A stretch of 64,000 nucleotides of DNA. It comes from Carbonactinospora thermoautotrophica (GTDB lineage: Bacteria > Actinomycetota > Actinomycetes > Streptomycetales > Carbonactinosporaceae). The position numbers were made by a program, and so were the translations under genes. The notes beneath the pieces were generated by a model that worked only from the letters and a program-made list of their open reading frames with translations, made no database searches and was not told the DNA's origin. Each line of letters starts with the position of its first letter. Position 1 is the first letter of the stretch. Where the stretch lies: positions 1 through 64,000 of the forward strand of contig NZ_JYIJ01000009.1 of the NCBI RefSeq assembly GCF_001543895.1. Reading direction: 5' to 3'. Shown one piece after another: positions 8,021 through 30,654 of the stretch.

Positions 8021-8174
8021 CGGCGGTACCTAACTCGATCAGGCAACACGAAGTCCCCGCGGTACCAACTGATCGCGGCAACACGCACGACGGGTCGTGT
8101 CTGATCGGGTGGTCCCTCAGCTCTGGGTTGGCAGCCACTTGGCTGAGGGGACGGTTATGAACTTGTTCGGTCTA

Positions 8175-8575: not shown

Positions 8576-8851
8576 TCAACCGCTGAGCTCCTCGATCCGG
8601 CGCGCCAGCTGGAAGTCCTTGTCGGTCAGGCCGCCTGCTGAGTGGGTCGTGAGGCTGAGCGTGACCTGGTTCCACCCGTGGATGCTGATGTCCGGGTGGT
8701 GGTTGGCCTTCTCGGCGAGAACGCCGATCTCGACCACGAACGCGAGGGCTCGCCGGAAGTTCTTGTGCTTGAAGGTCTTCACGATCTTGTCGCCCTGGCG
8801 TTCCCAACCGGGCAGCTCAGCCAGCGCCGTGGTGATCTCGTCTTCGGTCAT
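8576..8851 (-). CDS. Pterin-4a-carbinolamine dehydratase
   Basis: A 91-residue protein of the PCD/DCoH family, which dehydrates 4a-hydroxytetrahydropterin and can also act as a dimerising cofactor. Family signatures are clear: LPGWERQGDKIVKTFKHKNF, then KANHHPDISIHGWNQVTLSLTTHSAGGLTDKDF, with the catalytic His pair in NHHPD and a third His in THSAGGLT. Its ATG overlaps the stop of the GntR gene (ATGA), so it is the second gene of that operon. A complete metabolic enzyme gene inside an element backbone is unusual and may be cargo. Confidence 0.93.
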   Translation of the reverse strand: MTEDEITTALAELPGWERQGDKIVKTFKHKNFRRALAFVVEIGVLAEKANHHPDISIHGWNQVTLSLTTHSAGGLTDKDFQLARRIEELSG

Positions 8852-9624: not shown

Positions 9625-9775
9625 TGCGCCGTCTCCTTTCGTGTCCATCGCCTCGATCGTAGGCCAACACGTGACACGTGTCGCGACCACCTTGACAAGA
9701 TCTCGACGCGCTTCTACACCTTTAGTCGTGACACGTGTCACGTGTCACCTATTCCAGATGGATCGGAGGTTCTGC
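9625..9775. promoter_or_regulatory. Divergent promoter region with palindromic operators
   Basis: Two palindromic sites flank a rightward promoter: CACGTGACACGTGTCGCG near 9668-9685 and GTGACACGTGTCACGTGTCAC near 9728-9748. Rightward promoter: TTGACA (9692-9697), 17-bp gap, TACACC (9715-9720). A leftward promoter can be drawn as GCGACA, 17 bp, TACGAT (complement of 9656-9661), with a palindrome inside its spacer. Binding here would shut both genes, so autoregulation by the GntR protein is the simple reading. The sites are seen; the binding is inferred. Confidence 0.75.
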
Positions 9776-9967
9776 ATGACCGCTCAGACTCAGGACACCG
9801 ACCGGCTGCTCACGCCCAGCGAGGTCGCCCAGATGTTCCGCGTGGACCCGAAGACCGTTGCCCGCTGGGCCAAGGCCGGCAAGATCACCGCGATCCGGAC
9901 CCTGGGGGGGCACCGCCGCTTCCCGGCCAGCCAGTTCCGCGACCTGCTCACCGGATCGGGCAACTGA
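9776..9967 (+). CDS. BldC-like MerR-family DNA-binding protein
   Basis: A 63-residue single-domain MerR-type HTH protein. LLTPSEVAQMFRVDPKTV, WAKAGKITAIRTLGGHRR and the overall length match BldC, the Streptomyces developmental regulator that binds DNA cooperatively on direct repeats. In integrative elements small MerR-type proteins also serve as excisionases, so a recombination directionality role is an alternative. ATG 9776 follows GGAGG at ideal spacing. It is controlled from the palindrome-rich region upstream and followed by a strong terminator, so it is a one-gene unit. Confidence 0.85.
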   Translation: MTAQTQDTDRLLTPSEVAQMFRVDPKTVARWAKAGKITAIRTLGGHRRFPASQFRDLLTGSGN

Positions 9968-9970
9968 AAG

Positions 9971-9999
9971 AGGCCCCGGTGTTGGAGCCACCGGGGCCT
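9971..9999 (+). terminator. Strong stem-loop after the BldC-like gene
   Basis: AGGCCCCGGTG (9971-9981) pairs perfectly with CACCGGGGCCT (9989-9999) around a 7-base loop, 3 bases after the stop codon. No U-tract, as is common in high-GC actinomycetes. Confidence 0.8.
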
Positions 10000-10040
10000 G
10001 GAGCCAGCACCACTCCCCGCGTCAGATCTGGAGCAGTGCC

Positions 10041-10172
10041 ATGACCACGGTACCCCTGTCGTCCCTTTACGGGACGACCGTCCGCACTGACACGATCCCC
10101 CGCCCCCGTCTGGGCTGCCTGGGCCGTATCGACGAGCACCAGGCCAACCTGATCGCTCCCGAGGGGCGGTGA
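10041..10172 (+). CDS. Small hypothetical protein upstream of WhiB
   Basis: A possible 43-residue protein (starts MTTVPLSSLYGTT, ends NLIAPEGR). It runs to 10172, just before the WhiB ATG, so it would be the first gene of the WhiB/transfer operon. No known family; the ribosome site (TCTGGAGCAG, about 10 bases upstream) is plausible. Confidence 0.4.
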   Translation: MTTVPLSSLYGTTVRTDTIPRPRLGCLGRIDEHQANLIAPEGR

Positions 10173-10177
10173 CGGCG

Positions 10178-10429
10178 ATGGACTGGCGTCACCGCGCCGC
10201 GTGTCGGGACGAGGACCCCGAACTGTTCTTCCCGGTCGGCAACACCGGCCCGGCGTTGCTGCAGATCGAGGAGGCCAAGGCCGTCTGCCGTCGCTGCGAG
10301 GTCATCGACGCCTGCCTGCGGTGGGCGCTGGAGACCGGCCAGGACGCCGGCGTGTGGGGCGGCATGTCGGAAGACGAGCGCCGCGCGCTCAAGCACCGCG
10401 CCGTCCGCGGCAGGAGGCGGACGGCATGA
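10178..10429 (+). CDS. WhiB-family iron-sulfur regulator
   Basis: An 83-residue WhiB-like protein (86 if the GTG at 10169 is used). The four iron-sulfur cysteines are seen in AACRDEDPE, VCRRCEV and DACLRW, followed by the family turn GVWGGMSEDERRAL and a basic tail RGRRRTA. These redox-sensitive proteins act through the sigma factor. ATG 10178 is preferred because GAGGGG lies 11 bases upstream, while GTG 10169 has almost no spacing. Its stop overlaps the next start (ATGA), so it leads the transfer operon and may set when the element transfers. Confidence 0.95.
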   Translation: MDWRHRAACRDEDPELFFPVGNTGPALLQIEEAKAVCRRCEVIDACLRWALETGQDAGVWGGMSEDERRALKHRAVRGRRRTA

Positions 10430-12087
10430 GGCTGGACCTGAGGACAGCGCTCGGGTACGGCGCGGACCACCCCGGTTACGTGCTCGCCGCGGCGGCGCTC
10501 ACGGTGGTCGCGCTGGCGATCCTCGCCCGCCTCGTGCGCGCCCTCGGCGGGGCCGGTGCCCAGGCCGGCCAGGAGGCCGGCGAGCAGGGTGGCCAGCAGG
10601 ACGAGACGGGCAGCAAGACCCGCCTGGAAGACGTGATCACGTTCGTGGCCGCGATCGTCGCCACGGGCGTCTCCCTCCAGGGCATGTGGGAGGTGTTCAG
10701 CGACAAGCTGTCGGACGTCCCCGCCTGGCTGCGGGTCGTGCTGTTCGGCTTCATCGAGCTGGCCATGCTGGCCAGTGCGTTGCGGGCCCGCCGCAACATT
10801 CGGGAGACCGGAGACGGCGATCCGGGGCTGGACGCCACGGCGGTGCGGGTGCTGACCGCCATCACCGCGATCCTGTCCTGCCTGGACGCCGGCAGCCTCG
10901 TGGAGGCCTTGCTGCGGCTGGTCGCCCCGGCGATCGCCGCGTTCCTGTGGGAGCGGTTCCTGGCGATCGAGCAGCGCCGGGTTACCGGCCGGGAGCGGCG
11001 GATCCACTGGCGGGTCACGCCCGAGCGGATCGCCGTCTGGCTCGGCCTGGCTGAGGCGTACGACCGCACCGCGAGCGAGGTGGACGCGCACCGCCGGCTC
11101 GCCCGGCTGGCGCGGGCGGCCAAGCGGGTTCGGACGTTGAACGAGGCGCGCGTGACAGGCCGGCGTCTGCGCAAGGCGCTGGCGGAGCTGGACCGGGCGA
11201 TGGAAGACGCGGTCGAGTACGCCGGCCTGGCGACCGACCCGACCCGCCAGCAGCAGCTGATGGACTACATCGGCGCGCTTTACAGCGCCGCCACGTTGGC
11301 CGACCTGAACCCGCACGCGCCGTGGCACCCGGCCGCACCGCCAGTCGAGCCGGGTGCGCTGCCCCGACTGGTCCCGGTCCCGATCCCGGTGGAGCCGGCG
11401 TCGGCCGACCCAACCGAGAAACCGACCGAGACGGAGTCGAGCGCGACCGTAGACCCGACCGGGGAGTCGGTCGAGGCGATGCCGGTCGAGGAGGAGTCGA
11501 CCCAGACCGAGGAGTCGACCGGGGACCGTGACCCGGCTGGCCGGGGGTCGACCGTAGCGGCGGTCGAGTCGACCGGGTCGGCCGAGGAACCGGCGGTTGA
11601 GCCGGCGGTGGCGTCGGCGCTGCCGCTGCTGCCCTACGCCCCGACTGTGGTGCGCCTGGCAACCGAGGCCCCGACCGCAGAGGTGTTCCCGTGGGACGGG
11701 TCGGGTCGACCGGCCGAGCGGGTCGGGAGCGCGGTGGCGGTCGGGCTGACCCCGACTGAGGAATCGACCGGGGCGGCACCGGTCGAGGGGAAGTCGGTCG
11801 AGCCGACCCGGCCGAGGGTTCGCGCGGTGGCGGTCGGGCCGACCCGACCCCGGCGCGGCGTGCGGGCTCGGGTACCCGTCCCGCCGTCCGCCCGGTCGAG
11901 GCGGGTCAAGCGCAGCGACGAGGAGCTGCTGGCGGCCGCGCGGGAGCTCGCCGAGCAGCGGGGCGTGCCCGCGCACGAGCTGAGCGCGGAGGCGATCCGC
12001 GTAGGGCTGCGGATCAAGGCCGGCAAGGCGCGAGAGCTACGCGACCGGCTGCGCGCCGCGGCCGAGGAGTCGGAGGAGGCCGCCTGA
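10426..12087 (+). CDS. DUF2637 membrane protein of the transfer operon
   Basis: A 553-residue protein. The N-terminal half has four likely membrane helices: about residues 15-38 (YVLAAAALTVVALAILARLV), 68-86 (DVITFVAAIVATGVSLQGMW), 100-120 (RVVLFGFIELAMLASAL) and 140-168. This is the DUF2637 pattern found in actinomycete plasmids and integrative elements, beside tra genes. A long Pro/Glu/Thr/Ser/Val linker follows (~residues 305-480). The C-terminal ~70 residues (SDEELLAAARELAEQRG ... RLRAAAEE) look like a small helical DNA-binding or wHTH segment. It overlaps WhiB and the next gene by a few bases. Likely a spread or transfer accessory protein; exact role unknown. Confidence 0.8.
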   Translation: MRLDLRTALGYGADHPGYVLAAAALTVVALAILARLVRALGGAGAQAGQEAGEQGGQQDETGSKTRLEDVITFVAAIVATGVSLQGMWEVFSDKLSDVPAWLRVVLFGFIELAMLASALRARRNIRETGDGDPGLDATAVRVLTAITAILSCLDAGSLVEALLRLVAPAIAAFLWERFLAIEQRRVTGRERRIHWRVTPERIAVWLGLAEAYDRTASEVDAHRRLARLARAAKRVRTLNEARVTGRRLRKALAELDRAMEDAVEYAGLATDPTRQQQLMDYIGALYSAATLADLNPHAPWHPAAPPVEPGALPRLVPVPIPVEPASADPTEKPTETESSATVDPTGESVEAMPVEEESTQTEESTGDRDPAGRGSTVAAVESTGSAEEPAVEPAVASALPLLPYAPTVVRLATEAPTAEVFPWDGSGRPAERVGSAVAVGLTPTEESTGAAPVEGKSVEPTRPRVRAVAVGPTRPRRGVRARVPVPPSARSRRVKRSDEELLAAARELAEQRGVPAHELSAEAIRVGLRIKAGKARELRDRLRAAAEESEEAA

Positions 12088-12350
12088 TGGCCGGCTACCG
12101 GATCAAGAAAGGCGCGGGCCCGACGCAAGCCCAGCGGCGGGCCGAGCGGCGCCGGGCTCGGCTGGCCGAGCGGATGGCGGCCGCATCCACCCCGCAGGAC
12201 CGCATCGCAGCCGCCGCCGAGCACCTGCGCGGCGTGGTCAAAACCGCCCCGGCCCACGTGGCGGAGCGGGCCGCCGCCCAGGCGGTCCAGGTGCTGTGCG
12301 GCCTGGCCGAGGAGCTGCTGGCCGCCACGACGAGGAGGAGGGGAGCGTGA
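12087..12350 (+). CDS. Small basic hypothetical protein
   Basis: An 87-residue protein, Arg/Ala rich, starting MAGYRIKKGAGPTQAQRR. It shares one base with the genes on both sides (TGATG), which supports its reality and puts it in the transfer operon. No family recognised; predicted mostly helical with no membrane segment. Confidence 0.65.
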   Translation: MAGYRIKKGAGPTQAQRRAERRRARLAERMAAASTPQDRIAAAAEHLRGVVKTAPAHVAERAAAQAVQVLCGLAEELLAATTRRRGA

Positions 12351-12811
12351 TGACCAAGACTCCGGCGACTACGCACCGTGAGGCCGCACACCGCACACCG
12401 CACTCATGTGCGGACACGGAGAACACCGCCAACGCGGCCCCGCGCGCGCCCGCGCGCGCGAAGGACACCGAGCAGACCGCACTCACGCACCGTGACCGCT
12501 GGTCCGGGCTGCTGGACCGGTTGGCGGGGGAGCTGACCCCGCCCACGGTGTGGGCGGACCGGCCGGCGAGCCTGCGGGAGATCTCCCGCTACGCCCGTCA
12601 CGGGGCCTGGACCACCGAGACCGGGGCCTGGCGCACGGCCGGGGTGTGGTGGTGCCGGCTGGTCGCCATCCCGGTGTCCACCCTCGCCTACTACACCGCC
12701 TGGATCGCCCAGCGCCCCTCGCGGACCGTCGTGGTCACGGTCCTGTACGTCGTCGCCGCCCACACCACGCCCGGCCGGGTGCTGCTGCCGTGGCCGGCCT
12801 GGCTGCCCTGA
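12350..12811 (+). CDS. Small membrane protein of the transfer operon
   Basis: A 153-residue protein coupled to the previous gene by TGATG, with GAGGAGGGGAG just upstream. The first ~60 residues are polar, and a C-terminal hydrophobic region (VWWCRLVAIPVSTLAYYTAWI, then RTVVVTVLYVVAAHT) gives one or two membrane spans. Comparable small Spd-type membrane proteins assist intramycelial plasmid spread in Streptomyces. That role is by position only. Confidence 0.6.
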   Translation: MTKTPATTHREAAHRTPHSCADTENTANAAPRAPARAKDTEQTALTHRDRWSGLLDRLAGELTPPTVWADRPASLREISRYARHGAWTTETGAWRTAGVWWCRLVAIPVSTLAYYTAWIAQRPSRTVVVTVLYVVAAHTTPGRVLLPWPAWLP

Positions 12812-12840
12812 TCCACCACCCATCGGAAAGGAGTGAGGAG

Positions 12841-13287
12841 TTGTCTGGTCTGGCAAGCGCCGCAGCGGTCGCGGTCGTGTGCCTGTTCGTCGCCGTCGTG
12901 CTGCACAAGCGCCGCAAGGCGCCCAAGACGGTCGGCGTGCTGATGCTGCTGGCCGGGTTCGGCATCAGCGGCCTGGTGGGGCAGTTGCTGTACCGGTTGG
13001 GCGCGGCGCTCGGCCACGTCGCGGCGGTCGGCACCGCGCGGCTGTTCGGCGTCGCGGTCCCCGCCGCGGTGCTCATCGCCGCGGGGGTGTGGCTGTTCTT
13101 CGACCTGCACCCCAAGGAGGGCAAGCCGAGCAAGGCGCTGCCGGTGCTGGCGTTTGTGTTCCCGACCTTGTTGAGCGTGCTCGGCGGGGTCTACGTCGGC
13201 CTGGGCGGGCAGGTGCTCACCACGATCGGCACCGGGGTGAGCGAGCTGGCCACCACCGTGTTCACCACTACCGGCGGGGGGCGGTGA
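12841..13287 (+). CDS. Multi-span membrane protein of the transfer operon
   Basis: A 148-residue protein starting at TTG 12841, chosen because GGAAAGGAG lies 7 bases upstream and the sequence begins directly with a membrane helix. Hydrophobic segments: residues ~4-23 (AAAVAVVCLFVAVVLHK), 30-52, 62-88 and 100-128, so about four spans. Probably a spread-type accessory membrane protein; no named family recognised. Confidence 0.65.
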   Translation: MSGLASAAAVAVVCLFVAVVLHKRRKAPKTVGVLMLLAGFGISGLVGQLLYRLGAALGHVAAVGTARLFGVAVPAAVLIAAGVWLFFDLHPKEGKPSKALPVLAFVFPTLLSVLGGVYVGLGGQVLTTIGTGVSELATTVFTTTGGGR

Positions 13288-13290
13288 CCG

Positions 13291-14197
13291 ATGGACCTGT
13301 TCACGCTGGTGGTCCTGATGTGGGTGGCCCGGCTCACCGCCACCGACATCGCGTACGCGGTGCGCGGCAAGACCCCACCCCGGGTGAAGCTGCGCATCGC
13401 GGAGCTGCAGGCCGCCGCCGTCGCCGTGGCCGGCGGCCGGCCGCTACGGGGCGCGCGACTACTTCGTCGACCTGTGGCACGACGCCTGGGAGGACGCCCG
13501 CGCCGCCCGCGAGGAACGCCGCGCGAAGAAGCAGGCCGAGAAGCGGGCCGAGCTCACGGTCACCGTCGAGCCGGCCACGTCGGCCGAGCCTGTCGAGGCG
13601 AAGCCGCCGACACCCGACCCTCAGCGGGCCGAGGAGCCCGCTTCCCAGGCCGCGCCCCCGGCCGCCCCCGCCCCGGCTCCCCAGCGGGCCGGCGAGGCGA
13701 AGCCGCCAGCCGACCCTGAGCCGCCGGCCGAGCCCGCGACCGGGCCAGCCGAGTCGAAGACCCCAGCCCTCCCGCCCGCCGCTGTGGCGGACCCCCAGAC
13801 CCCGGCCCCCGGGCAGGGCCCGGCGCCGGAGACGGCGCCAGCGGACGAGCCGCTGGCGACCGTGACCCCGATCAACTCCCGCATGGTTCAGGAGGACACC
13901 GTGAGCGCGATCAACGGCGAGACCCACACCCTGGCCGCGGCCAAGCAGTACGCGGCCGAGATGACCAAGGCCGCGGGCGCGGCGGTCGCCTCGATCGAGC
14001 AGTCCATCGCCCACCTGCAGGCCCGGGAAGTCACCGGCCCGGTCCTGGACCGACTGGCCGAGGCGAGCGAGCTCGCCGCCGCCCTGCAGGCGAAGTTCGT
14101 CGAGGTGTCCACCCTCCTGGCCGGCCAGGACGTCGTGGCCGAGGCCTACGCCGCGGTCCCGCACGCCGGGAGCAAAAAGTTCCTCACCCAGGAGTAA
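13291..14197 (+). CDS. Membrane-anchored transfer-operon protein, frameshifted
   Basis: Two frames together make one sensible protein of ~301 residues. Codons from ATG 13291 give MDLFTLVVLMWVARLTATDI and run to about 13435. The continuation one base on (from ~13442) reads YGARDYFVDLWHDAWEDARA, followed by a Pro/Ala/Glu linker and a helical C-terminus (AAKQYAAEMTKAAGAAVAS ... KKFLTQE). The span is 3n+1, so one extra base sits in the GGCCGGCGGCCGGCC tract. The protein looks like an N-terminal membrane helix, a charged coiled coil, a linker and a helical domain. Whether the frameshift is an error or real is open. Confidence 0.6.
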
Positions 14198-14263
14198 CCG
14201 GTCGCGCCGGCCGGGGGTGGCGGCCCCTGGCCGGCGCTCATCCCCTGTGAGAGGAGGAGTTCC

Positions 14264-16267
14264 ATGGTCCACCCGGCCCAGCCCGCTGACGAGCAGGCCC
14301 GCGAGGACCTGACCGGCGGCGCGGGCGCGCGTACCGCCTGGGGTACGAGGCTGGCCGCGCATCGGCAGGGGCGGATGCGGCACCGGCTGCGCCGCCAGCT
14401 CCTGCCGCACTACGCGGTGGGTGGGCTGCTGCTCGCCGGGGAGGCCGCGCACCTGGCCGGGCTCGCAGCCGGAGACCCGGCAGCGGTGGCCGGGCTGGTG
14501 GGCGCGTCGGCGGCCGGGGGCGCGCTGGTGGCCGGGACGATGCTGCGCGAGCGCATCCCTGCCGACCGGAAGCGGTGGGCGGCCGCCTGCGCGGCGGGTG
14601 GGTGCGCGTGGCTGGCCACGGCCGCCGGCGCTGGGGTCACCTGGGACACCGCCGCGCTGCTGCTCGCTGGCGGCTACGCCCTGGCGTTGCCGCACTGGCG
14701 CCGGCACCGCATCCCCAACCCGGGCGCGGTGCCGCTCGCCGATCCCGCAGCGGTCGAGGACGCCACGTCGATCCCGCAGTTGTGGCGGGCCAACGTGGGC
14801 GCCCTGGACGGGCCGCTGCCCGGCTCGTACCTGACCGACCGGGCCGAGATCCCGTACGGGGAGGCGTACACCGTGCAGCTCAAGCCGGGCCGGCAGTCCC
14901 TGGCCACGGTGCTGTCCAACCTGACCCTGATCGGCACCGGCCTGCTGGTCTACCCCGAGGATCTGGTCGTGGACAGGCACCCGTCCGGCGACTCCTCCAA
15001 GGTGCTGCTCAAGGTCCTCACCCGGTCCCCGATCCGGGAAACCGTCTGGTTCACCGGCCCGGCCTACGACCCGGCGACGGGCACGATCGCGCTGGGCCCC
15101 TTCGCGGACGGCCAAGGCGAAGCCCGCTGGCGGCTGTACAGCGAGAACTCGATGTGGGGCGGGGTCCTCATCGGCGGCCCCGGCTCGGGCAAGTCGAGCC
15201 TGATCGAGAACATCGCGATCTCCGCCGCCAGCACCGGGTACACGGTCATCCTCTACGGCGACCCGCAGGAAGGCGCCAGCTCCCCGGCGCTGGCCCGCCA
15301 CGCCGACTGGCCCGCGCTCGGGGTGGATCAGATCCTGGACATGCTGCGCGCCCTGGAACGCGCGTCCCGGTGGCGGGCCAAGGAGAACGCAGCCTACGGG
15401 CTGCGCGGATTCACCCCCAGCGTCGAGCGGCCTGGCGTCCTGGCGATCATCGACGAGTGCCACCGGGTGTTCGGGATCGAGGAGGCGCGCGAGCTGGCCG
15501 ACTGGATCGCCCGGGAGGGCCGCAAGGTCGGCATCGCCCTGCTGGTGGCCAGCCAGTACGCGGGCCTGCCGACGTTCGGCGGCTCCGAGTCGCTGCGGTC
15601 GTCGATCATGGCCGGCAACGCGGTGGTGCTGCGCACGGCCAGCAAGACCACCCGTGGCATCCTTGCGGGCCTGGAGTTCGACCCCGCCGAGCTGCCGGCG
15701 ATCCCCGGATACGCCTACCTGATCGACGCCACGGGCAAGGGCCGCACCGCGCCGTTCCGCGCCCGCTACGTGGCCGATCCCGAGGGCTGGCTTGAGCGCA
15801 CCCCGCAGGCCTCCCTCGACGCGTTCTTCGTCAACGCCCTCGGCGCCGTCTACACCGAGCGCCGTGCCCGCGCCGCCGCCGCCATGGAGGTGCTGCGCGC
15901 CGAGGTCGAGGCCCTCAAGGCCGGCGGGGCCGCCCTCCCGACCAAGCCCGAGACGAGGACGACCCCGGCGCCCGCCCGTGACCACGCCCGCCCAGCCGGC
16001 TCCGGCCTGGGCGCGGTCGTCGCCTTCCCCGCCTTCCCCGCCCCGGCCGGGCGCGGGCGCGACGGCGCGCAGGTCACCCAGGCGCAGGCCGCCGTGCTCG
16101 CGGCCATCGCCGCCGGGCACACCACCCCGGCCGCGATCCGCGCGGCCACCGGGTGGGGCGAGACCTACGTGCGCCGGCTGCTCGGCGAACTGCTCGACAA
16201 AGGCCTGATCACCAAGCCCGCGTCCGGCCGATACGCGCTCGTCGAGCAGGACCAGGCCACCGGCTGA
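14264..16267 (+). CDS. FtsK/TraB-type DNA translocase
   Basis: A 667-residue FtsK/SpoIIIE-like motor. Hydrophobic segments near residues 45-145 anchor it in the membrane. Walker A GGPGSGKSS is at ~residue 304 and Walker B VLAIIDECH at ~391, followed by an arginine-rich P-loop ATPase tail. The last ~65 residues form a winged helix (AIRAATGWGETYVRRLLGEL), as expected for a gamma-like DNA-reading domain. In Streptomyces elements the single TraB/TraSA protein moves double-stranded DNA between cells, and this is its likely role here. ATG 14264 follows GAGAGGAGGAG. The 66-bp gap before it carries a GC-rich imperfect hairpin. Confidence 0.92.
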   Translation: MVHPAQPADEQAREDLTGGAGARTAWGTRLAAHRQGRMRHRLRRQLLPHYAVGGLLLAGEAAHLAGLAAGDPAAVAGLVGASAAGGALVAGTMLRERIPADRKRWAAACAAGGCAWLATAAGAGVTWDTAALLLAGGYALALPHWRRHRIPNPGAVPLADPAAVEDATSIPQLWRANVGALDGPLPGSYLTDRAEIPYGEAYTVQLKPGRQSLATVLSNLTLIGTGLLVYPEDLVVDRHPSGDSSKVLLKVLTRSPIRETVWFTGPAYDPATGTIALGPFADGQGEARWRLYSENSMWGGVLIGGPGSGKSSLIENIAISAASTGYTVILYGDPQEGASSPALARHADWPALGVDQILDMLRALERASRWRAKENAAYGLRGFTPSVERPGVLAIIDECHRVFGIEEARELADWIAREGRKVGIALLVASQYAGLPTFGGSESLRSSIMAGNAVVLRTASKTTRGILAGLEFDPAELPAIPGYAYLIDATGKGRTAPFRARYVADPEGWLERTPQASLDAFFVNALGAVYTERRARAAAAMEVLRAEVEALKAGGAALPTKPETRTTPAPARDHARPAGSGLGAVVAFPAFPAPAGRGRDGAQVTQAQAAVLAAIAAGHTTPAAIRAATGWGETYVRRLLGELLDKGLITKPASGRYALVEQDQATG

Positions 16268-16809: not shown

Positions 16810-17183
16810 TGGGCATGCGCATCACCGGCCACGTGCCCAACGACCACCCCGCCGCGCGGCTGCTGCTCGCCGCGCGGGAGCTCACGGCGCTCGAGCTCGC
16901 CGGCGAGGCCCTGGTCCCGGTGCTCAAGGTGACCGCCGACGCGGTGACCGAGCTCGCCCAGGCCGCCCGCGCCTGGACCGAGCGGGAGGCCCGGCGACAG
17001 AGCGAGTCCGCTCGGCTCTACGGCATCTCGGCGTGGGCGAACGCCCCGACGGGGCGGCTGTTCAACGCCCGCGTCGCCGCGGACCGGTTCGCCGCCCACC
17101 TGCGCGAGGCCTGCGAGCTGCTCACCAAGGAGTTCACGGCGAGCCGAGCGGCCGAGACCGACGAACAGCCGCACACCCCCTGA
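16809..17183 (+). CDS. Hypothetical helical protein
   Basis: A 124-residue protein coupled by one base to the previous gene. It starts MGMRITGHVPNDHPAARLLL, is mostly helical and has the segment WTEREARRQSESARLYG in the middle. No family recognised. It is paired with the preceding gene in the transfer operon, and hairpins bracket the pair. Confidence 0.65.
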   Translation: MGMRITGHVPNDHPAARLLLAARELTALELAGEALVPVLKVTADAVTELAQAARAWTEREARRQSESARLYGISAWANAPTGRLFNARVAADRFAAHLREACELLTKEFTASRAAETDEQPHTP

Positions 17184-17191
17184 CCCGCCAC

Positions 17192-17234
17192 CCGGGCGCG
17201 GCCCGCACGCCGCCAAGCCACAGGCCGCGCCCGG
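17192..17234 (+). promoter_or_regulatory. Intergenic hairpin with GCCGCCAAGCCA loop, copy 2
   Basis: CCGGGCGCGGCC (17192-17203) pairs perfectly with GGCCGCGCCCGG (17223-17234). The loop again contains GCCGCCAAGCCA. It begins 9 bases after the stop of the previous gene. Confidence 0.65.
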
Positions 17235-17281
17235 CACTCCCACCAGCTCACCCACACGACCCGGAAGGGAGCAGCAGCATC

Positions 17282-18121
17282 ATGACCGAGATCTACACCG
17301 TCGGCGAGGCCGTGGCTGTCACGGAGGAGTCCCGGGCGTTAGCCCGGTTCGCGACCCGGGGTGGGGGCGTGGTCACCGTCTACCTCGTCCGCAGGCAGTT
17401 GCCGGGCTACGAGCGTCACATGGAGAGCGCGTACTGGCGGTGTGACTGCGGCAACGGCAGCGACCTGGAGCCGCTGTGGCGCGCTAAGCGTCTGGCGCAC
17501 GAGCATGCCGAGGACTGCCGCGCCATCTCCGCCGACCTGGACACCCCACCGGCCACGTACGTGGCCGGCGTGCTCGACGGCATCTGCGACCGGCTGGGTG
17601 AGACGGTCCGGGAGCTGTGGGGGATCAACCAGGGCGTCGGCGACCTGGTCGAAGCGGTCAAGGGCGACCCCGAGGAGCGAGTCTGCGAGCGGCTGGTCCG
17701 CCAGATCGACGAGACACGGGTGGAGACCCGCAACGCCGACGCCAAGGCCGGGCTTTTGTTGGCGTTGGCCGGGCTGGCGGTCGCCAACCCCGACAAGCTC
17801 CCCCGCGGGGTGTTCGCTGCAGCCGGCCACGCGCTCGCCTACGCGGCGATCCTCCTCCTGCTGTGGGCGGTCCTGCCCCGCCTCGGGCCACGCCGCCGTC
17901 CGTTCGGGGCGCGCACCGACTTCCCCGGCTGGGCCCGCCGCACCACCGCCGGCGACGTGGAGTTCGACGTACGCGCCGGCTTCGCCAGCCCGCTCACGCT
18001 GGCCGAGCGGCTTCACGTCCTCGCCCGGCTCGCGGTGCGCAAGTACCGGCTCATCCAGGCCGCCGTCGTCATGCTCGCCGCGGCGGCCGCCCTGTACGGG
18101 ATCGCCGCCCTCCTGAGCTGA
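17282..18121 (+). CDS. Pycsar-effector-like membrane protein (DUF5706 type)
   Basis: A 279-residue protein. The C-terminal ~140 residues follow the PycTM/DUF5706 pattern: DETRVETRNADAKAGLLLAL leading into a membrane helix, a second helix (AYAAILLLLWAVLPRL), a polar loop, then LARLAVRKYRLIQAAVVMLA forming the last helix. Known PycTM effectors disrupt the membrane when a cyclic pyrimidine nucleotide made by PycC rises during phage infection. The N-terminal ~110 residues are different and carry a Cys/His set (WRCDCGNGS, HEHAEDC), perhaps a small metal site. No cyclase gene is next to it, so it may serve another purpose. ATG 17282 follows GGAAGGGAG. Confidence 0.7.
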   Translation: MTEIYTVGEAVAVTEESRALARFATRGGGVVTVYLVRRQLPGYERHMESAYWRCDCGNGSDLEPLWRAKRLAHEHAEDCRAISADLDTPPATYVAGVLDGICDRLGETVRELWGINQGVGDLVEAVKGDPEERVCERLVRQIDETRVETRNADAKAGLLLALAGLAVANPDKLPRGVFAAAGHALAYAAILLLLWAVLPRLGPRRRPFGARTDFPGWARRTTAGDVEFDVRAGFASPLTLAERLHVLARLAVRKYRLIQAAVVMLAAAAALYGIAALLS

Positions 18122-20670: not shown

Positions 20671-21912
20671 GTGCGGATCGTCATGGTGCTGGACACGCCG
20701 AACATCTGGGCCGGGGTTCCGGTCGCTGGCACGCCAGCACGCATGGCGCAACTCGCGCGGGCCCTGTCCGGGGCCGGCGCCGATGTCGTCTTCGTGTTAT
20801 GCGACAGGGGCATCACCGCGACGGCGTTAGCCGCGTGGCCGTTTAACGGACTGCTGGTGCATCCGGAGGTGCTGTACGGGCCGCCGCCGCTACTGGCCGA
20901 GCATCTGCGCCCGTACGCTCCCGATCTGCTGGTGGTCACCGACGCCGAGGCCGTGGCCACGAACGCCCGCGCGTGGGCTGATCTCCTCGGCTGCCGGTTG
21001 GTGTATGAGGCGCACGACGACGAGGCCGCGCTGTCCCGGTCGCTGGGCGAGCCGGCCGCGTTGACTGCCCGCCGTCGTGCCTGGCAGGAGGCCGCGGCCC
21101 GGGCCGCGGATTACGTCACCGTGCTGTCGGCCCGGGAAGCCGCGACGATGCGTGGCTACGGGGTGGACCCCGCGCGGCTGCTCGTCGCACCCAACGGCGT
21201 CGACCTGTCGGCGCGTACTCCATGGGGCCCGAATCCCCCCGCCCGGCGCCTGCTGTTCATAGGGAATCTGCACTACGCGCCGAACGCGCGAGCCGTGCAG
21301 CTGCTGGTGGAGCTGGTTGCCGCGCTGCGGGAGCGTGGCGTGGAGGTGTCCGCACGCGTGGTCGGCCGCGGGCCGGGTGACGTCACCCGACCCGCAGCGG
21401 GGGTGGAGTTCCGCGGGCCCGTAGTCGACCTGGACCCAGAGTTGGCGGACGTGACCGTGGCCGTGGCCCCACTGGTCGCGGGATCCGGGATGAAGATGAA
21501 GGTCCTGGACTACCTGGCGGCTGGGCTGCCGGTGCTGGCCACGAGCGAGGCCGTCAACGGCCTGCCGCCCGACTCACCGGGTGTCATCGTCTGCGACGAG
21601 CTCGATCGCTGGCCTGGCCTGGTCGCCGAGCTGTTGGACGACCCCGCCCGCCTGCAGACCCTCGGCGCGGCCGGCCGCGCCCGGCTGCGACCGGACCACG
21701 AATGGGCCGGCATCGCCGCGCGGGTCCTGGCCGCCTACCGCTCGTGGCTTGCCCTCCCGGCACCGCCGCGGCCACCTGCAGCACTCCCGCCTGGGGCTGG
21801 TGAGCCACGGTGGCTTGTGGAACACGCCCAGCAGCAGGCCCTCAAGACCCCTGCCCTGACGACCGCCCAGCCGGTGATTCACCTGCCGGCCGGCATCCCA
21901 CACCCCGCGTGA
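20671..21912 (+). CDS. GT4-family glycosyltransferase
   Basis: A 413-residue retaining glycosyltransferase of GT-B fold. The N-terminal acceptor domain starts RIVMVLDTPNIWAGVPVAGT. The C-terminal nucleotide-sugar domain has LLFIGNLHYAPNARAVQLLV, then VAPLVAGSGMKMKVLDYLAAGLPVLAT, where the E-x7-E region is replaced by the GMKMKVLDYLAAG form common in GT4. GTG 20671 follows a strong GAGGAGGAA. The last ~45 residues are Pro-rich. Its stop overlaps the HprK-like gene by one base, so both were once one operon. Sugar and acceptor unknown. Confidence 0.88.
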   Translation: MRIVMVLDTPNIWAGVPVAGTPARMAQLARALSGAGADVVFVLCDRGITATALAAWPFNGLLVHPEVLYGPPPLLAEHLRPYAPDLLVVTDAEAVATNARAWADLLGCRLVYEAHDDEAALSRSLGEPAALTARRRAWQEAAARAADYVTVLSAREAATMRGYGVDPARLLVAPNGVDLSARTPWGPNPPARRLLFIGNLHYAPNARAVQLLVELVAALRERGVEVSARVVGRGPGDVTRPAAGVEFRGPVVDLDPELADVTVAVAPLVAGSGMKMKVLDYLAAGLPVLATSEAVNGLPPDSPGVIVCDELDRWPGLVAELLDDPARLQTLGAAGRARLRPDHEWAGIAARVLAAYRSWLALPAPPRPPAALPPGAGEPRWLVEHAQQQALKTPALTTAQPVIHLPAGIPHPA

Positions 21913-22394
21913 TGAACCGCGACGGAACCATGCCCACCCGCCGGTACAACTGCCACGCCGTCGCATTGGACGTACACGCTCCCGACGCGGTGTTACGCGA
22001 GATCGACGTGTACTTCGCCGCGATGCCCGCCGCCCCGCGCCCACCCAATACCGTGCAGCTCACGCTCGTCCACAATGCCCGCGAGACGCGGCGCCGCCTG
22101 GAGCAACTGGCCCACCGTCCCCACGACGGTCACGCCCAGGGGCACCCCCAACTCGTCTACCGGCTGTGGCAGCGCGGGGACGGCGGCCGCCTCCTCGCAC
22201 CCACCACCGGGGACCCGCACCTGATCACGGTCGCTGCGGGGCCGCGCACGCTCCATCGCGACGTCGCGGTCCGGATCACCGCGGCCAGCTCGGCGACGCT
22301 CACCCGGACCGCGATCCGGGTCATGCGCCAGCTCATGATCCGGTACGCCGAACGAGAGGGAGCGGTCAGCGGCCACGCTGCCGCCGTCGTGCTA

Positions 22395-23557
22395 GTGCCT
22401 TGTCCAGGAAGGTTAATCATGTAACTGGTTGATCAGCTGCTGGGCTGGGAGGTGGGTGTGGCTCGTCCGCCGGATGTGTTCGTGCGGCCGCTCGCGATGG
22501 CGGAAGGGCGTCGTTTGCAGCGGATCTGCCGGACGGCGAGGGATCCGGTGAGGCTGCGGCGGGCGATGGTGGTGCTGGCCAGTGCGCAGGGTTGGCCGGT
22601 GCCGCAGATCGCGCGGCTGGCACAGACGTCGCAGCGGTATGTGCGGGGTGTGATCCACGATTTCAACGAGGTCGGGTTCGCCGCGCTGGACCCAAAATGG
22701 AGCGGGGGCAGGCCGAGGACGATTTCTGAGGCGGCCCGCGCTGAGATCTGCCTGATCGCCCGGTGCTGCCCCCGCGACGTGGGTTTGCCGTTCGGCGCCT
22801 GGAGCCTGAGCAAGCTGCGCGAGTACCTGATCGACCGGGGCGTGGTGGCCTCGATCAGCCGCGAGACGATCCGGATCATCCTGCGTGGGGCGGGGATCAG
22901 CTGGCAGGCGACCAAGACATGGAAGGCCTCGACCGATCCGGACTTCGCATCGAAGATGCGCCGGGTGCTTGCCCTGTACGATCATCCGCCCGAGGGCGGC
23001 CGGGTGGTCTGCGTCGATGAGTTCGGGCCGCTGAACCTGCGGCCGCGTCCTGGCCGGGGCTGGTACCCGGCTGGGCGTCCCGCCCGGATCCGCGCCACCT
23101 ACACCCGCACCCTGGGGGTGCGGCACATGCTTGCCGCGCTGGACCTGGCCACCGGCAAGATTTTCTACCGGATCCGCGACCGGAAACGCTGGCGGGAGTT
23201 CCTCGCGTTCTTGAAGGTGCTGCGCCGCCGCTGGCCAACCGAACGGCTCTACGTGGTCGTGGACAACTTCGCCCCGCACCGGCACCCGAAGGTGCGCGAG
23301 TGGGCCGTTGACCACGACGTGGAGCTGGTGTTCCTGCCGACCTACGCGTCCTGGCTGAACTGGATCGAGCCCGAGTTCACCGGCGTGCGCTACTTCGCGT
23401 TGAACGGTTCGGACTTCACCAGCCACGACCAGCAGAACGCCGCCATCGCCGCCTACCTCCGCTGGCGCAACCAGCACGCCGAACCCAAACGCGACTTCGC
23501 TGTCAGCTCCAAGATCCGCCAACCCGATTACGTGATCAACGTTGCTTGACGCGGCAC
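22395..23557 (+). mobile_element. IS630-family insertion sequence
   Basis: About 1.16 kb. Ends are imperfect inverted repeats of ~34 bp: left begins GTGCCTTGTCCAGGAAGG, right (complement) begins GTGCCGCGTCAAGCAACG, both continuing GTT(A/G)ATCA(T/C)GTAA. A TA dinucleotide flanks both ends (22393-22394 and 23558-23559), the IS630 target duplication, within CTAG. The transposase looks complete, so the element may be active. Confidence 0.92.
22452..23549 (+). CDS. IS630-family transposase
   Basis: A 365-residue DDE transposase. An N-terminal HTH (PVPQIARLAQTSQRYVRGVI) is followed by a linker and the catalytic core. The acidic triad is visible in VVCVDEFGPL, YVVVDNFAPH and SWLNWIEPEF. GTG 22452 is the longest start; GTG 22458 is an alternative. 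The gene is intact and its stop lies within the right inverted repeat. It transposes the element at TA. Confidence 0.93.
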   Translation: MGVARPPDVFVRPLAMAEGRRLQRICRTARDPVRLRRAMVVLASAQGWPVPQIARLAQTSQRYVRGVIHDFNEVGFAALDPKWSGGRPRTISEAARAEICLIARCCPRDVGLPFGAWSLSKLREYLIDRGVVASISRETIRIILRGAGISWQATKTWKASTDPDFASKMRRVLALYDHPPEGGRVVCVDEFGPLNLRPRPGRGWYPAGRPARIRATYTRTLGVRHMLAALDLATGKIFYRIRDRKRWREFLAFLKVLRRRWPTERLYVVVDNFAPHRHPKVREWAVDHDVELVFLPTYASWLNWIEPEFTGVRYFALNGSDFTSHDQQNAAIAAYLRWRNQHAEPKRDFAVSSKIRQPDYVINVA

Positions 23558-23575
23558 TAGCCGGATCCGCTCTAG

Positions 23576-24626
23576 ATGGTTGATGTGAATTTCGTTGCTG
23601 GTGGCGACACGCGTGGCGGGTAGGGGCGGAGAAGGCGGAGAGTGTCCAGGATCGGCGTTGCACACCCAACGTCGACCATGGGGGCCGCGTGGACGCCGAC
23701 CTGGACACTCTTCTGATCGCACTCTACGTGGCCTTGGAGGATCACATCATCCCGGCCAGACGGACACGCCGGGCCGGTCCGGGCCGCCGGCCAAAGGTCA
23801 CCGATGCCGAACTGGTGTGCCTGGCCGTGGCGCAGGCGCTGCTGCGCTACCCCGATGAGCATCACTGGCTACGTGCCGCACCCGCCCGGGTCGGGCACCT
23901 GTTCCCGCGGCTGTTGTCGCAACCGGAGTACAACCGCCGGCTCCGCGCCGCCGCTGACCTGATGGAAGACGCGCTGCGGTGGCTGGCCGACCACACCCCG
24001 GCCACCGCCGAACCGCTGCGGCTGATGGACGGCACACCGGTGCCCTGCGGCGCCTCCCGGACCACCGCGAGGCGCTCGAACCTGTTCGGCTGGGCCGGCT
24101 ACGGCCACGACACCTCCCACCACCGCTTCTACTGGGGTACCAGGCTGATGCTCCTGGTCACCGCCGAGGGCACCATCACCGGGTTCGGGCTGGCCAACCC
24201 CAAGCTGGTCGGCGAACGCCAGCAGGTGCTGGGCCTGCTCGCCCGCCGCAAGAACCTGCCGTCCCCAGGCAGCACGATCGTGTGTGACAAGGGCTTCGCC
24301 GGCCGAGACTTCGCCATCGCCCTGGCCGGCAAGGCCCTGACCGTGCTCCGCCCGGCCCGCAAGGACGAACCCGACCCGGGCATCTTCCCCCACTGGCTAC
24401 GCCAACGCGTCGAAGCGATCATCTGGACCTTGAAAGGCCAACTCCACCTCGAACACCACGGCGGGCGCATCCCCACCGGCCTGTGGGCCCGCATCGTGCA
24501 GCGTCTGCTCGCCCTCAACGCCGTGATCTGGCACAACTGGACCATAGGCGCACCAGTCAAGCGCTCCCTGATCCCCTACGACCACTGACCAAGGCCCTGA
24601 CCAGCCCACAAATTCACATCAACGAT
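23576..24626 (+). mobile_element. IS982-like insertion sequence
   Basis: About 1.05 kb. Inverted ends: GATGGTTGATGTGAATTT (from 23575) on the left, and the complement of the right end reads GATCGTTGATGTGAATTT. CTAG flanks both ends (23572-23575 and 24627-24630). Because CTAG is itself palindromic it may be target duplication or part of the repeat. The family is assigned from the transposase. Confidence 0.85.
23689..24588 (+). CDS. IS982-family transposase
   Basis: A 299-residue transposase. It opens MDADLDTLLIALYVALEDHI, with GRRPKVTDAELVCLAVAQAL, the start typical of actinomycete IS982-type proteins. LRLMDGTPVPCG and TIVCDKGFAGRDF supply the first two acidic residues of the DDE set, and an Arg/Glu-rich segment (RQRVEAIIWTLKGQLHLEHH) the third. 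The GTG at 23689 has little ribosome-site support but gives the family N-terminus. The gene is intact. Confidence 0.88.
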   Translation: MDADLDTLLIALYVALEDHIIPARRTRRAGPGRRPKVTDAELVCLAVAQALLRYPDEHHWLRAAPARVGHLFPRLLSQPEYNRRLRAAADLMEDALRWLADHTPATAEPLRLMDGTPVPCGASRTTARRSNLFGWAGYGHDTSHHRFYWGTRLMLLVTAEGTITGFGLANPKLVGERQQVLGLLARRKNLPSPGSTIVCDKGFAGRDFAIALAGKALTVLRPARKDEPDPGIFPHWLRQRVEAIIWTLKGQLHLEHHGGRIPTGLWARIVQRLLALNAVIWHNWTIGAPVKRSLIPYDH

Positions 24627-25234
24627 CTAGTGGTGGCCGGCCGGCCCGGGTCGGGCAAGACAACGGTGGCGCTGGGCACGGCCGCCCGGTACGGTGCGGC
24701 GCTGCTCGCCGGTGACCGAGTGATCTGTCACCCCGACCTCGCACGCGGCACCTGGCAGGTCATCGGCCTGCCGCTGGCGTGGCGTATCGCCCCCGGCACC
24801 GCCCGGTCCGTGCCGACGCTGGCCCACGCGCTCGCCGCGGGTCTGAACCCCCGCCGCGGCGAGGCCCTGGTGGACGGCAAGTACGAGCTGACCGGCGCGG
24901 AAACCGCCGGCCTGTTCGGCGTCCCCGTCCTACCTGTCGCCGCATTGGGTCGCGTCGTCGTCCTCGAACACGCCCCAGGGCAGGCGGTCAGCGTCACCGA
25001 GCTCGCCCCCGATGACCGGATGCCGGCACTCGCCGAGACCCTGTTCCACCCCGACGACCAGCTCTTTACCACCGACTGGCTGGGAGTTCACCCCCCGCTG
25101 ACGGGGGCGGCCGTCGCCGAACGCGCGGCCCGCCTCGCGCAGACGGTCCCGGTGTACCGGGTGACCTGGCCCGAGCCCGCAGCGCTGGCTGTACTGCCGG
25201 ACCTGCTGGTCGGCCTCCCAGCCGGCCTGACGCA

Positions 25235-25936
25235 ATGAACGGCGTGATCATCGCCGGTATCTCCGGGGCGGGGAAGACCACCCTGCACCGGGCCGTCATC
25301 GCCGCCCTGGCAGGTGCCGGCCGGGAAACCCTCCTGGCGTTCCCGCAGGCGATGACCACCACGGCGCACCTGCACCTGGCCGGCAACCCCGCCGCGCACG
25401 CCGCCGCACTCCTCGACTGGTTCCACGACGCCGTGGCATTCGCCGAGCGGGTCATGCACCAGGCCACCGCCGGGGGACTCCTCACCCACCCCCGCTACGG
25501 CCGCCACTGGACGCCCACGCTGGTGCTCGAGGGGTTCATCTTCGACATCCCGACCCACGGCTATCCGATTCCTCGCGCGGCCGTCCGGCCGCTGGAACGC
25601 CGACTTGCCGCGCTCGACGTCACCCTCGTGGTGCTGCGCGTGCCTCCGGATCACATCCAACGCCAGTGCGTGGAATCCACCCGCCGCCACCGCGGCGAAC
25701 GGTGGGCGGCCCACCTGGATCGGCTCGGTCGCAGCGACGCGGAGCGGGCCGCGCACTTCCGCCGCCGGCAAGACGATCTGCTGGCGTGGGTTGCCGACAC
25801 CCCGCTACCCGTCGTGCAGCTCGACACCTCACCGGGACGCTGGGACGACTACACGCGCCGTATCGTCGACCTGTTCACGCCGTCGCGCCACCCTCACGGG
25901 TCGGTGTCCAGCCACGCTGCGAACCGGGATCGGTAG
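25235..25936 (+). CDS. P-loop nucleotide kinase-like protein
   Basis: A 233-residue protein with an N-terminal P-loop GISGAGKTTLHRAV at residues ~7-20, followed by a thymidylate/adenylate-kinase-like layout: LVLEGFIFDIPTHG as the second strand, then LVVLRVPPDHIQRQCVESTRRHRGERW, a lid-like Arg-rich segment. Function not known; probably phosphorylates a small molecule or nucleotide. It overlaps the HprK-like gene by 4 bases and belongs to the GT4 operon. The HprK insertions may cut its transcription. Confidence 0.8.
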   Translation: MNGVIIAGISGAGKTTLHRAVIAALAGAGRETLLAFPQAMTTTAHLHLAGNPAAHAAALLDWFHDAVAFAERVMHQATAGGLLTHPRYGRHWTPTLVLEGFIFDIPTHGYPIPRAAVRPLERRLAALDVTLVVLRVPPDHIQRQCVESTRRHRGERWAAHLDRLGRSDAERAAHFRRRQDDLLAWVADTPLPVVQLDTSPGRWDDYTRRIVDLFTPSRHPHGSVSSHAANRDR

Positions 25937-26837
25937 TCCGCGCCCAGCGCCGTGTCGCCGACGTGGTGCCAGTAGGCGATCCCGGACAGCCATTCCAGGC
26001 CCTCGCACACCCACTGCCGAGCCTCGAACCCGGGAAGGTGCCCGCCAGCGTCCCGGTACCCGGCCAGGAACGGCTCGGCCGTGCCTGGGTACGCCTCGAA
26101 CACCCACGCCCGCAGTTTCACGAAGTCCGCCGCAGCGTCCCACCAACGCGCGTGCTCGAAGTCCAGCAGCCCGACCATCCGTGCGCCGTTGACGAGTACG
26201 TTCGGCAGGTGCAAATCCAGGTGTGTCAACGCTGGACGCACCAGCGGGGCGACCCGGCGGGCCGCCGCCCGCAACCGCGCGGCCGCAGCCGTCACCACCG
26301 CTGGCGGCAGCAGTCGGAGCGCGTGGTGCTCGCGCTCCAGCTCCGAGGCCCGCGCTGCGACCACTTCATCCCAGGACACGCGCGCAGCGTGGCCGGTGAA
26401 CGCCCCGCCCGTGGTCGCGTGCATCCAGGCGACCGCCTGTCCCCAGGGAACGCGACCGCCCGCCGGTCCTCCACCGTCAGGCCCGGCCAAGCCGCCACCG
26501 CGTCCACCCCAGGCAGCCAGTCGAACACCAGCAGCGGACGCCCCAACGGCGAACGGTCGACCACCAGGCGCAACCGTGCCACCGGCACCCCGGCCGCGTA
26601 CGCGGCGCGGTGCATCACCGCGTGGCGGCGTGCCCGGTCCGGGTCCGGCTCGCGGAGGGGAAGCTTCACCAGCAGGTCACCGTCCGGGCCGCTCGCCCGC
26701 CACGTTCGATGACTGCGACCACCCGCCACCGGCACTATCGCGCAGACGCCGGCCAGGCCAGGCAACGCCCGTACGACAGCGAGCACCTGGCGGTCGAAGT
26801 CCGGTGCGGTGTCGACAGCAGCAGCCCCAGCAGTCAC
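25894..26837 (-). pseudogene. Aminoglycoside phosphotransferase-like protein, frameshifted
   Basis: An APH-fold protein of ~314 residues when repaired. The N-terminal lobe (VCAIVPVAGGRSHRTWRA, DGDLLVKLPL) and the catalytic lobe (LTHLDLHLPNVLV, VGLLDFEHARWW) are in different frames. The switch is near 26445, inside CCCCAGGG, with one base missing. Start taken as GTG 26837. It converges with the P-loop kinase (43-bp overlap of tails) and is divergent from the Nudix gene. The HLDLHLPN catalytic loop has the Asp and Asn needed for activity. Substrate unknown. Confidence 0.75.
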
Positions 26838-26910
26838 GGCCTGTGAGCGTAGACTGACTTCGCCCGGCCTGCCCGGGTTTTTGCTATCCGCCACCCCAGG
26901 GAGCAAAACC

Positions 26911-27354
26911 GTGCCACCTGCCACCGAGGTCATCGCACGCGCCCTCATCGTGGTCGACGATCACGTGGTACTCGCCCGGCAGGTCGGCCGGGCCTGGTCG
27001 TTCCTGCCCGGTGGCCACGTCGACCCCGGCGAGCCGGTCGTCGCCGCCCTGGGCCGCGAGCTGGCCGAGGAGCTGGACGTCACGATCGCCGCAGCCGAAC
27101 CCATCGGGGTCGTCGAGCACGCCTACCAGGAGAACGGCCCGCGCCACGAGCTCAACATGATCTTCTCCGTACAGATCAGCCAACCGCACGGCGACCTGCG
27201 CAGCAGGGAAAATCACCTCGAAATCCACCTCGTGCCCCTGGCCGACCTGCCCGCCGTCGACCTGCGGCCCGCGCGACTGAAGGACGCTCTCGCCCAGTGG
27301 ATCACCACCGGCGCGCCGTTCTACCGACTCCTCCACACCGCTCTCGTCCCCTGA
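26911..27354 (+). CDS. Nudix hydrolase
   Basis: A 147-residue Nudix pyrophosphohydrolase. The Nudix box GHVDPGEPVVAALGRELAEELD fits G-x5-E-x7-R-E-x2-E-E, with the metal-binding glutamates present. GTG 26911 follows AGGGAG at good spacing. These enzymes split nucleoside diphosphates linked to another group. Divergent from the phosphotransferase-like gene across ~70 bp. Its place beside the kinases, SLOG and GT4 suggests a role in making or clearing a nucleotide-linked small molecule; that is inference. Confidence 0.9.
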   Translation: MPPATEVIARALIVVDDHVVLARQVGRAWSFLPGGHVDPGEPVVAALGRELAEELDVTIAAAEPIGVVEHAYQENGPRHELNMIFSVQISQPHGDLRSRENHLEIHLVPLADLPAVDLRPARLKDALAQWITTGAPFYRLLHTALVP

Positions 27355-29205: not shown

Positions 29206-30654
29206 GGGTTTGGTCAAGTGGTTTGGGTGGCTGGGTGCTGGTAGAGGGTGCCGTCGCGGAGCATGGCGAACAGGACGTCGCAGCGGCGTCGGGCCAGGCA
29301 GATCAGGGCGGCGTTGTGGCGTTTACCTTCGGCGCGTTTCCGGTCGTAGTAGGCCCGGCTGGCCGGGTCGGCCAGGGCCGCGAATGCGGCGAGAAAGAAC
29401 GCCCGTTTGAGGTTCTTGTTCCCGCCGCGGGGTGGGTGTTCGCCCCGGATGGAGGACCCGGAGCGGCGGGTCACCGGGGCCAGGCCGGCGGTGGGCGGCC
29501 AGGTGACCGGCGGTCGGAAAAGCCGCTGCCGTCCCCGACTTCGAGCAGGATCCTGGCTGCGGTCCTGACTCCGATGCCCGGCATCGAGGTCAGGACCTGG
29601 GCAAGAGGGTGCGCATCGAGGATCCTTTCGACCTCGGCCGCGATCTGCGTGCGCTGGTCCAGTACCGAACGCAGTGCCTCGGCGAGGCGGGGCAGGACGG
29701 TCTGGGCCGCGTGAGTGCCGGGGACGGTGACGGTCTGGGTGTCCAGCGCGGCGAACACCTCGGCGATGAGCCGTTCGCCCATGCGGGGTGCGTTCTTGCG
29801 GGCGATGGCCAGCAGGCGGCGCCGCCCGGCGGCGCGCAGGCCTTGGGGTCCGCCGTGGCGGGAGAGGAGCTCCAGCACAGCGGGGTGGTGCAGCCTGGGG
29901 CCGAGGACCCGTTCGAGGGCGGGGTGGATCTGGGTGAGCAGCCCGCGGATGCGGTTGGTGATCCGGGTTGCCTCGCCGGCCAGGTCGTCATCGAAGCCGA
30001 CCAGCACCTCCAGCTCGGCCAGCGCCTCATCGCCGGCATCGACCCGGCGTAGCGTGTGCGGCAAGGTGCGGGCGGCGTCGGCGATCACGTAGGCGTCGCG
30101 GGCGTCGGTCTTGCCCTCCCCCGGGGTGCACGTCGGCCAGCCGGCGCATCGTGAGACCGGGCAGGTAGGCCACCTGACAACCACAGGCACGCGCCACCGC
30201 GACCGGCAACGCGCCGATGGAGGCGGGCTGATCAACGACGACCAGCACCGGGCCGTGCTCGGCGAGCCGGGTGAAGCCCGCAGCCGGGTCTCGTCGTTGG
30301 GCAGCGGCTTGTCGTACCGGCGCCTGCCGGCTGGGTCCAACGCGGTGGCGTGGTGTTCGCCCTTGCCGACGTCCAGGCCCAGAAACACCGCGTACTCGCT
30401 GCTCACGCGGTCTCCTCCCCGTGTGTTCGCCGCACGGCCCGGACGCTGGTCTGGCGACGGTTGCCGGCAGCCACGTGACGAGGAGACCAACCCGCAGGCG
30501 GCCATGTCCCTCTCAGCGGTCCACCGACGCCACCGGGGCCGGTGACAACACCCCCCGGATCATCAACGACAGGGGCAGTAAGTCATGCCGGACCCGGCGA
30601 CCGGGGGTCCTCGATCAAGAGCCACGAAAAAGGTAACGGGAGACCCGGTGCCGG
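29206..30654 (-). mobile_element. IS110-family element, degenerate
   Basis: About 1.45 kb, the usual size for IS110. Ends are estimated from where the flanking gene stops and resumes; no inverted repeats were seen, as is normal for this family. The transposase is broken by several frameshifts, so the element is probably dead. Confidence 0.6.
29214..30406 (-). pseudogene. IS110-family transposase, several frameshifts
   Basis: Start GTG 30406 preceded by GGGGAGGAG. Readable pieces: VFLGLDVGKGEHHATALD (the RuvC-like DEDD Asp), VVVDQPASIGALPVAVARA, then TDARDAYVIADAART, SMPGIGVRTAARILLEVGDG, and finally PVTRRSGSSIRGEHPPRGGNK. These need at least three frame changes (about 30280, 30120 and 29510), so no complete protein is made. 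The family is clear from the order of motifs. Confidence 0.85.

Follow-up and report, generated by a model that had tools for sequence, protein, structure and literature searches.

In the DNA of Carbonactinospora thermoautotrophica analysed here (the window: 64,000 nucleotides, positions 1 to 64,000 of contig NZ_JYIJ01000009.1), a gene for an HprK-like protein has been split by two different insertion sequences (IS), an IS630 element and an IS982-like element, inserted at neighbouring CTAG tetranucleotides. The locus is a pseudogene carrying two separate CTAG insertions, as a preliminary description of the sequence had proposed, and three lines of evidence bear this out: the four CTAGs that bound the elements, the open frame restored when the elements are removed, and the alignment of the rejoined product with uninterrupted homologues from Nocardia vulneris (L059) and from genome G521 (L046/L051). 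The double insertion is real, recent and ordinary in kind. A target that is shared by both elements, rare and clustered, together with relaxed selection on the gene, probably explains the closeness of the insertions without a special hot spot. The parts of the locus are as follows.

21912..22395, + strand: 5′ part of the HprK-like gene, through the first CTAG, placed by alignment (alternative start at 21930)
22395..23557, + strand: IS630-family element of 1163 bp, or 1161 if the duplication is read as CTAG, with its transposase at 22452-23549
23561..23571, + strand: remnant of the HprK-like gene between the two elements, 11 bp
23576..24626, + strand: IS982-like element, 1051 bp, with CTAG on both sides and its transposase at 23689-24588
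24627..25238, + strand: 3′ part of the HprK-like gene, bearing the P-loop (38% identity to L059, 36% to L051)

Reconstruction of the HprK-like gene

The bounding CTAGs are located at 22392 and 23557 for the IS630 element and at 23572 and 24627 for the IS982-like element. When the flanks were joined by script, keeping one CTAG per site, a single open frame of 1107 bases was obtained (368 codons and a stop), in which the P-loop is intact. The insertion sites are placed about 4 and about 9 residues upstream of the P-loop. In the ancestral gene the starts of the two CTAGs were 15 bp apart, and 11 bp separated the sites; the preliminary description was right about their closeness, although the spacing of 16 bp that it gave has to be corrected.

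An assembly error is unlikely to have produced the double insertion, because matching duplications flank the elements and their removal restores the frame, a judgement that concerns the assembled sequence. A frame open by chance across the junctions was likewise rejected, given that the homologues align over both of them. The proteins of L059 and L046/L051 align without gaps over the two junctions, between a conserved histidine and the P-loop, and thus fit the rejoined frame in the comparison with uninterrupted relatives that the preliminary description had recommended. L059 has one extra residue immediately before the conserved histidine; of the homologues that are more distant, L002, L003 and L007 each exceed L046 by one residue in the stretch from the histidine to the P-loop, and L008 has none extra. 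Taken alone, the 5′ part has no match in Pfam or NCBIfam, is 36.6% identical to L051 over 82 residues and has no match to L059 at E 1e-3.

Relatives are scarce. Among 394 genomes of the class, G521 gave the best match outside the own genome (E 1e-21), and Nocardia vulneris was the sole relative to come from 406 matching stretches in the genome_contigs scan. The 3′ part was matched in 18 of the 293 genomes of the order, the own genome included, the other 17 showing 29-49% identity with E values of 2.4e-8 or weaker. At the DNA level, the own genome and those of 20 relatives yielded, outside the locus, only matches of 24-65 bases, so that no close strain supplied an empty site for comparison, and a plasmid search with the 3′ part returned no match.

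Nature of the encoded protein

HPr kinase/phosphorylase (HprK/P) phosphorylates the regulatory serine of the protein HPr. When an alignment of the family to which the broken gene belongs was compared with the sequences of the PDB, HprK came first (1jb1 and 2qmh, E about 6e-6), followed by AAA-type ATPases, from 7.5e-5, matched via the P-loop. For the protein of L059, a model with a mean predicted local distance difference test score (pLDDT) of 67 was compared with known folds by Foldseek: ranks 1 to 24 were all HprK/P, followed by PEPCK, with 1kkl at E 3.4e-6 and probability 1.00. The fold match is partial, as the best match has a template-modelling (TM) score of 0.29 by query and 0.56 by target, and the best root-mean-square deviations are high, of about 4-6 Å and more. 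The likeness to HprK/P thus comprises the P-loop, the best sequence family in the PDB and the top fold matches, whereas the gene differs in being placed within a module of glycosyltransferase, kinase and NUDIX genes and in having homologues that score below the family cut-offs. The Pfam domain Hpr_kinase_C reached 19.9 and 14.0 bits in the two intact homologues against a cut-off of 33.3, and the NCBIfam HprK-related kinase B reached 22.5 bits against 200. A search with the Hpr_kinase_C family, positive in 3 of 14 control genomes, gave no match in the own genome, whose copy of the gene is split. The results support a kinase of the HprK/PEPCK fold, so that the identity first proposed holds at the level of PDB family search and fold; the name HPr kinase is not supported, no curated HprK cut-off having been reached.

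The two insertion elements

The transposase of the first element scores 210.9 bits with the NCBIfam model transpos_IS630 (NF033545), well over the cut-off of 100, and the ends of the element are imperfect inverted repeats. The genome contains six full copies, all listed at 100%; five match the query over its whole length of 1163 bases and the remaining one over 1161. Five of them fit insertion at TA inside CTAG, where a duplication of 4 bp can be read equally well. The element resembles the IS630 family (Tc1/mariner-like) in transposase, ends and target, and differs in that the sixth copy (L073 (C18) 9537-10697) is placed at a non-CTAG site with GC on both sides. Use of CTAG by IS630 is already known, judging from the title of Tenzen and Ohtsubo 1991 (cited in PMC2170065), which names a preference for TA inside CTAG. 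By eye, the sixth copy appears to interrupt a rhodanese-like gene. Elsewhere (L075 (C17) 6405-14742), a pair of identical IS630 copies, inverted relative to each other and about 6 kb apart, resembles the ends of a composite element.

The second element is best matched by the IS982 family, as the preliminary description had labelled it, but narrowly misses the family cut-off: its transposase scores 122.4 bits with transpos_IS982 (NF033520), whose threshold is 130, and 33.7 bits with the Pfam domain DDE_Tnp_1. In size it agrees with the family (about 1 kb and about 290 amino acids, the transposase here having 299), and its ends are imperfect inverted repeats in which 16 of the 17 outer positions agree. 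If CTAG is the duplication, the ends read AT on both sides, whereas PMC7335449 describes conserved AC ends and direct repeats of variable length for IS982. Of the four copies in the genome, three are full and listed at 100%, and one, with 98% identity over the first 1011 bases, is split by other DNA; CTAG is found at all four. Because of the AT ends and the CTAG at every copy, the element is a divergent and slightly unusual relative of the IS982 family as that source portrays it. Among the 15 plasmid matches listed (of 37 records), 4 are annotated as IS982 family transposase and most of the others have no feature name. Inspection by eye of the split copy (L076 (C14) 8975-12658) revealed that the intervening DNA, about 1.4 kb, contains a transposase-like frame, and that a piece of an IS630-type transposase, not that of the element described above, is present downstream of the copy at a distance of about 0.8 kb.

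The preliminary description assigned a TA duplication to the IS630 element and a CTAG duplication to the IS982-like element. The CTAG flanks are present in both cases; the distinction does not stand, as the two readings are indistinguishable at CTAG sites. Its dating of the insertions as probably recent agrees with the six IS630 copies and the three full IS982-like copies listed at 100%, because of which both elements would have been active recently.

The five-gene module

The HprK-like gene is the second of five genes located at 20674-27354: glycosyltransferase, HprK-like gene, P-loop kinase, APH-like gene (on the opposite strand) and NUDIX hydrolase. Order and orientation are identical in L051 (G521) and L059 (Nocardia vulneris). 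Apart from the HprK-like gene, the members are the following.

20674..21912, + strand: glycosyltransferase (GT4/GT1-type), first gene, open (Pfam Glyco_transf_4 and Glyco_trans_1_4 above cut-off)
25235..25936, + strand: P-loop kinase (NMP-kinase-like fold), third gene, its start overlapping the stop of the HprK-like gene
25894..26948, − strand: APH-family phosphotransferase (Pfam APH in two frames)
26809..27354, + strand: NUDIX hydrolase, last gene, open (Pfam NUDIX, 56.1 bits)

The glycosyltransferase shows 45% identity over 395 columns to its counterpart in L051 and 43% over 407 columns to that in L059, and the NUDIX hydrolase 45% and 46%, respectively. Homologues of the P-loop kinase adjoin the HprK-like gene in the relatives (39% identity in L059, 41% in L051), and a fold search with a model of this kinase gave matches to thymidylate, adenylate and deoxynucleoside kinases. 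The APH-like gene, which needs only one frame in both L051 and L059, is spread over two in the window, and this brings the damaged genes to two of five (HprK-like and APH-like).

In these comparisons of sequences the module is rare and conserved. A profile of the P-loop kinase matched one of the 250 genomes of the family of G521, namely G521 itself, and three of the 345 genomes of its order, G521 and two partial matches (E 2.3e-4 and 3.7e-4). With the same kinase a plasmid search gave no match, and a viral scan gave no relative among 115 matching stretches. Among the titles and abstract openings listed by a literature search, none describes the five-gene module, which does not disprove that a description exists.

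Closeness of the two insertions

A count of CTAG insertions throughout the genome, which the preliminary description had suggested, places nine of the ten copies of both elements at CTAG (five of six for IS630, four of four for the IS982-like element). The frequency of the tetranucleotide was examined in 21 stretches totalling 460,465 bases, ten of which, including the window, had been chosen for IS copies or belong to the same contig. They contain 154 CTAGs, one per 2990 bp, and the 11 stretches that were not chosen for IS copies contain 56 in 220,000 bases, one per 3929 bp. The sites are clustered: of 133 gaps between neighbouring CTAGs, five (the present pair among them) do not exceed 15 bp, where random placement would give 0.92 on average (P 0.003, or 0.0125 with this pair set aside).

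We propose that a gene for an HprK/PEPCK-fold kinase, belonging to a rare module, was struck separately by the two elements. The first insertion, placed shortly before the P-loop, would have inactivated the gene, and the second would have been neutral once the gene was dead. The module may be under little selection, because the APH-like gene is frameshifted too, as would fit general decay of the module, and little selection would have left the CTAG 15 bp away free to receive the other element.

Several observations weigh against this proposal. The density of CTAG in the window (23 sites in 64 kb, of which the insertions created two) exceeds that of the 11 other stretches only slightly. With three of its five genes open, the module shows partial decay at most, and the frameshift of the APH-like gene may be a sequencing error. 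Moreover, if five IS630 and four IS982-like CTAG insertions had chosen uniformly among about 1300-1700 CTAGs, a mixed pair would be expected within 15 bp with a chance of about 0.0006-0.0008, and within about 1.1 kb with a chance of about 0.01. Given such low values, relaxed selection must shrink the accessible target considerably, or a local factor must help. The case was, however, singled out once it had been seen, and insertions survive only at CTAGs that lie in dispensable DNA; were these sites a tenth of the total, the chance figures would rise about tenfold. The coincidence is notable and demands no special mechanism.

A local factor could be a DNA structure or a bound protein that attracts both elements, or one element attracting the other. 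The position of elements from different families 15 bp apart, with its chance of <0.001 under uniform choice, speaks for such a hot target, and the ancestral stretch between the CTAGs resembles, by eye, an imperfect palindrome. Symmetry of the flanks was nonetheless rejected as a hot-spot signal, since its mean is 4.2 of 10 at the nine CTAG insertion sites and 4.1 of 10 at the 154 sampled CTAGs, a weak test in a sample that contains the insertion sites themselves. The homologues L046 and L059 are uninterrupted, and by coordinates none of the other eight copies, one of which is 52 bases from a contig end, forms a mixed pair of this kind, although the IS630-type transposase fragment noted above is about 0.8 kb from the C14 copy. 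By eye, on open reading frame calls, five of these eight are intergenic, two (both IS630) apparently cut genes and one is too near the contig end. A local hot target thus seems unlikely to us.

Selection against the gene would operate if the HprK-like kinase were harmful in this host, for instance by phosphorylating without its proper partner, so that insertions killing it were favoured. Two recent insertions in one gene, with the adjacent glycosyltransferase, kinase and NUDIX genes open, could be read in this way. Yet a single insertion suffices to kill the gene and the second gains nothing; selection predicts one insertion and receives no added support from another, and the APH-like gene is frameshifted as well. 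We regard such selection as quite improbable. The preliminary description had offered a hot target and selection against the gene as the two choices; the sharing of CTAG by nine of ten copies, the clustering of CTAGs, the lack of any excess of symmetry and the frameshift of the APH-like gene argue that the choice is not forced.

That the insertions did not simply knock out the gene, the end of the IS982-like element being fused in frame to the P-loop half so that an internal start would yield a shorter kinase domain, is very improbable: a frame is indeed open from 24483 in the element through the P-loop to 25238, but a sigma-70 scan of 23550-25300, a weak test for an actinobacterium, gave no promoter-like site, and the P-loop half lacks everything N-terminal to the strand that immediately precedes the P-loop.

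Other features of the window

The module is surrounded by mobile genes, namely those for a relaxase, a mobilisation-type protein and an integrase, and transposases of other families (IS110, ISL3, rve-type and IS4/5-type) are present in the window. One IS110-type transposase frame (29471-30505) is apparently continued, by eye, in another frame at 29214-29474. At 109-2140 there is a CRISPR-like array of 31 identical 30-nucleotide repeats and 30 spacers of 34-43 nucleotides, one of which occurs twice. Spacer 25 shares 21 identical bases with positions 46554-46574, inside a gene of 3139 amino acids in the same window, and matches 20 of 21 bases of a site in L079. That gene, an open frame at 39302-48721, has no Pfam match at E 0.001 and is matched in part by mads_2 of PADLOC (E 2.9e-14). 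A protein with a PycTM domain (Pycsar effector) is encoded at 17033-18121 (Pfam 46.5 bits, cut-off 27.2; PADLOC E 3.4e-7).

Concluding remarks

The shared target invites a broader speculation, which we advance tentatively and with more doubt than belief. Unrelated transposases might have converged on the palindromic CTAG, a rare target of patchy distribution in this high-GC genome, and would then meet in the few CTAG-rich segments that are dispensable; mixed pairs would be the signature of target sharing, and the IS982-like element, with its AT ends and CTAG at every copy, might form a separate subgroup.

The locus is a clean example of how insertion sequences with a common narrow target dismantle a dispensable gene, and it cautions against reading a double insertion as selection. 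It also draws attention to a rare and conserved module of five genes that includes an HprK-fold kinase, and to an IS982-like element that departs in its ends and its target from what has been published on the family.

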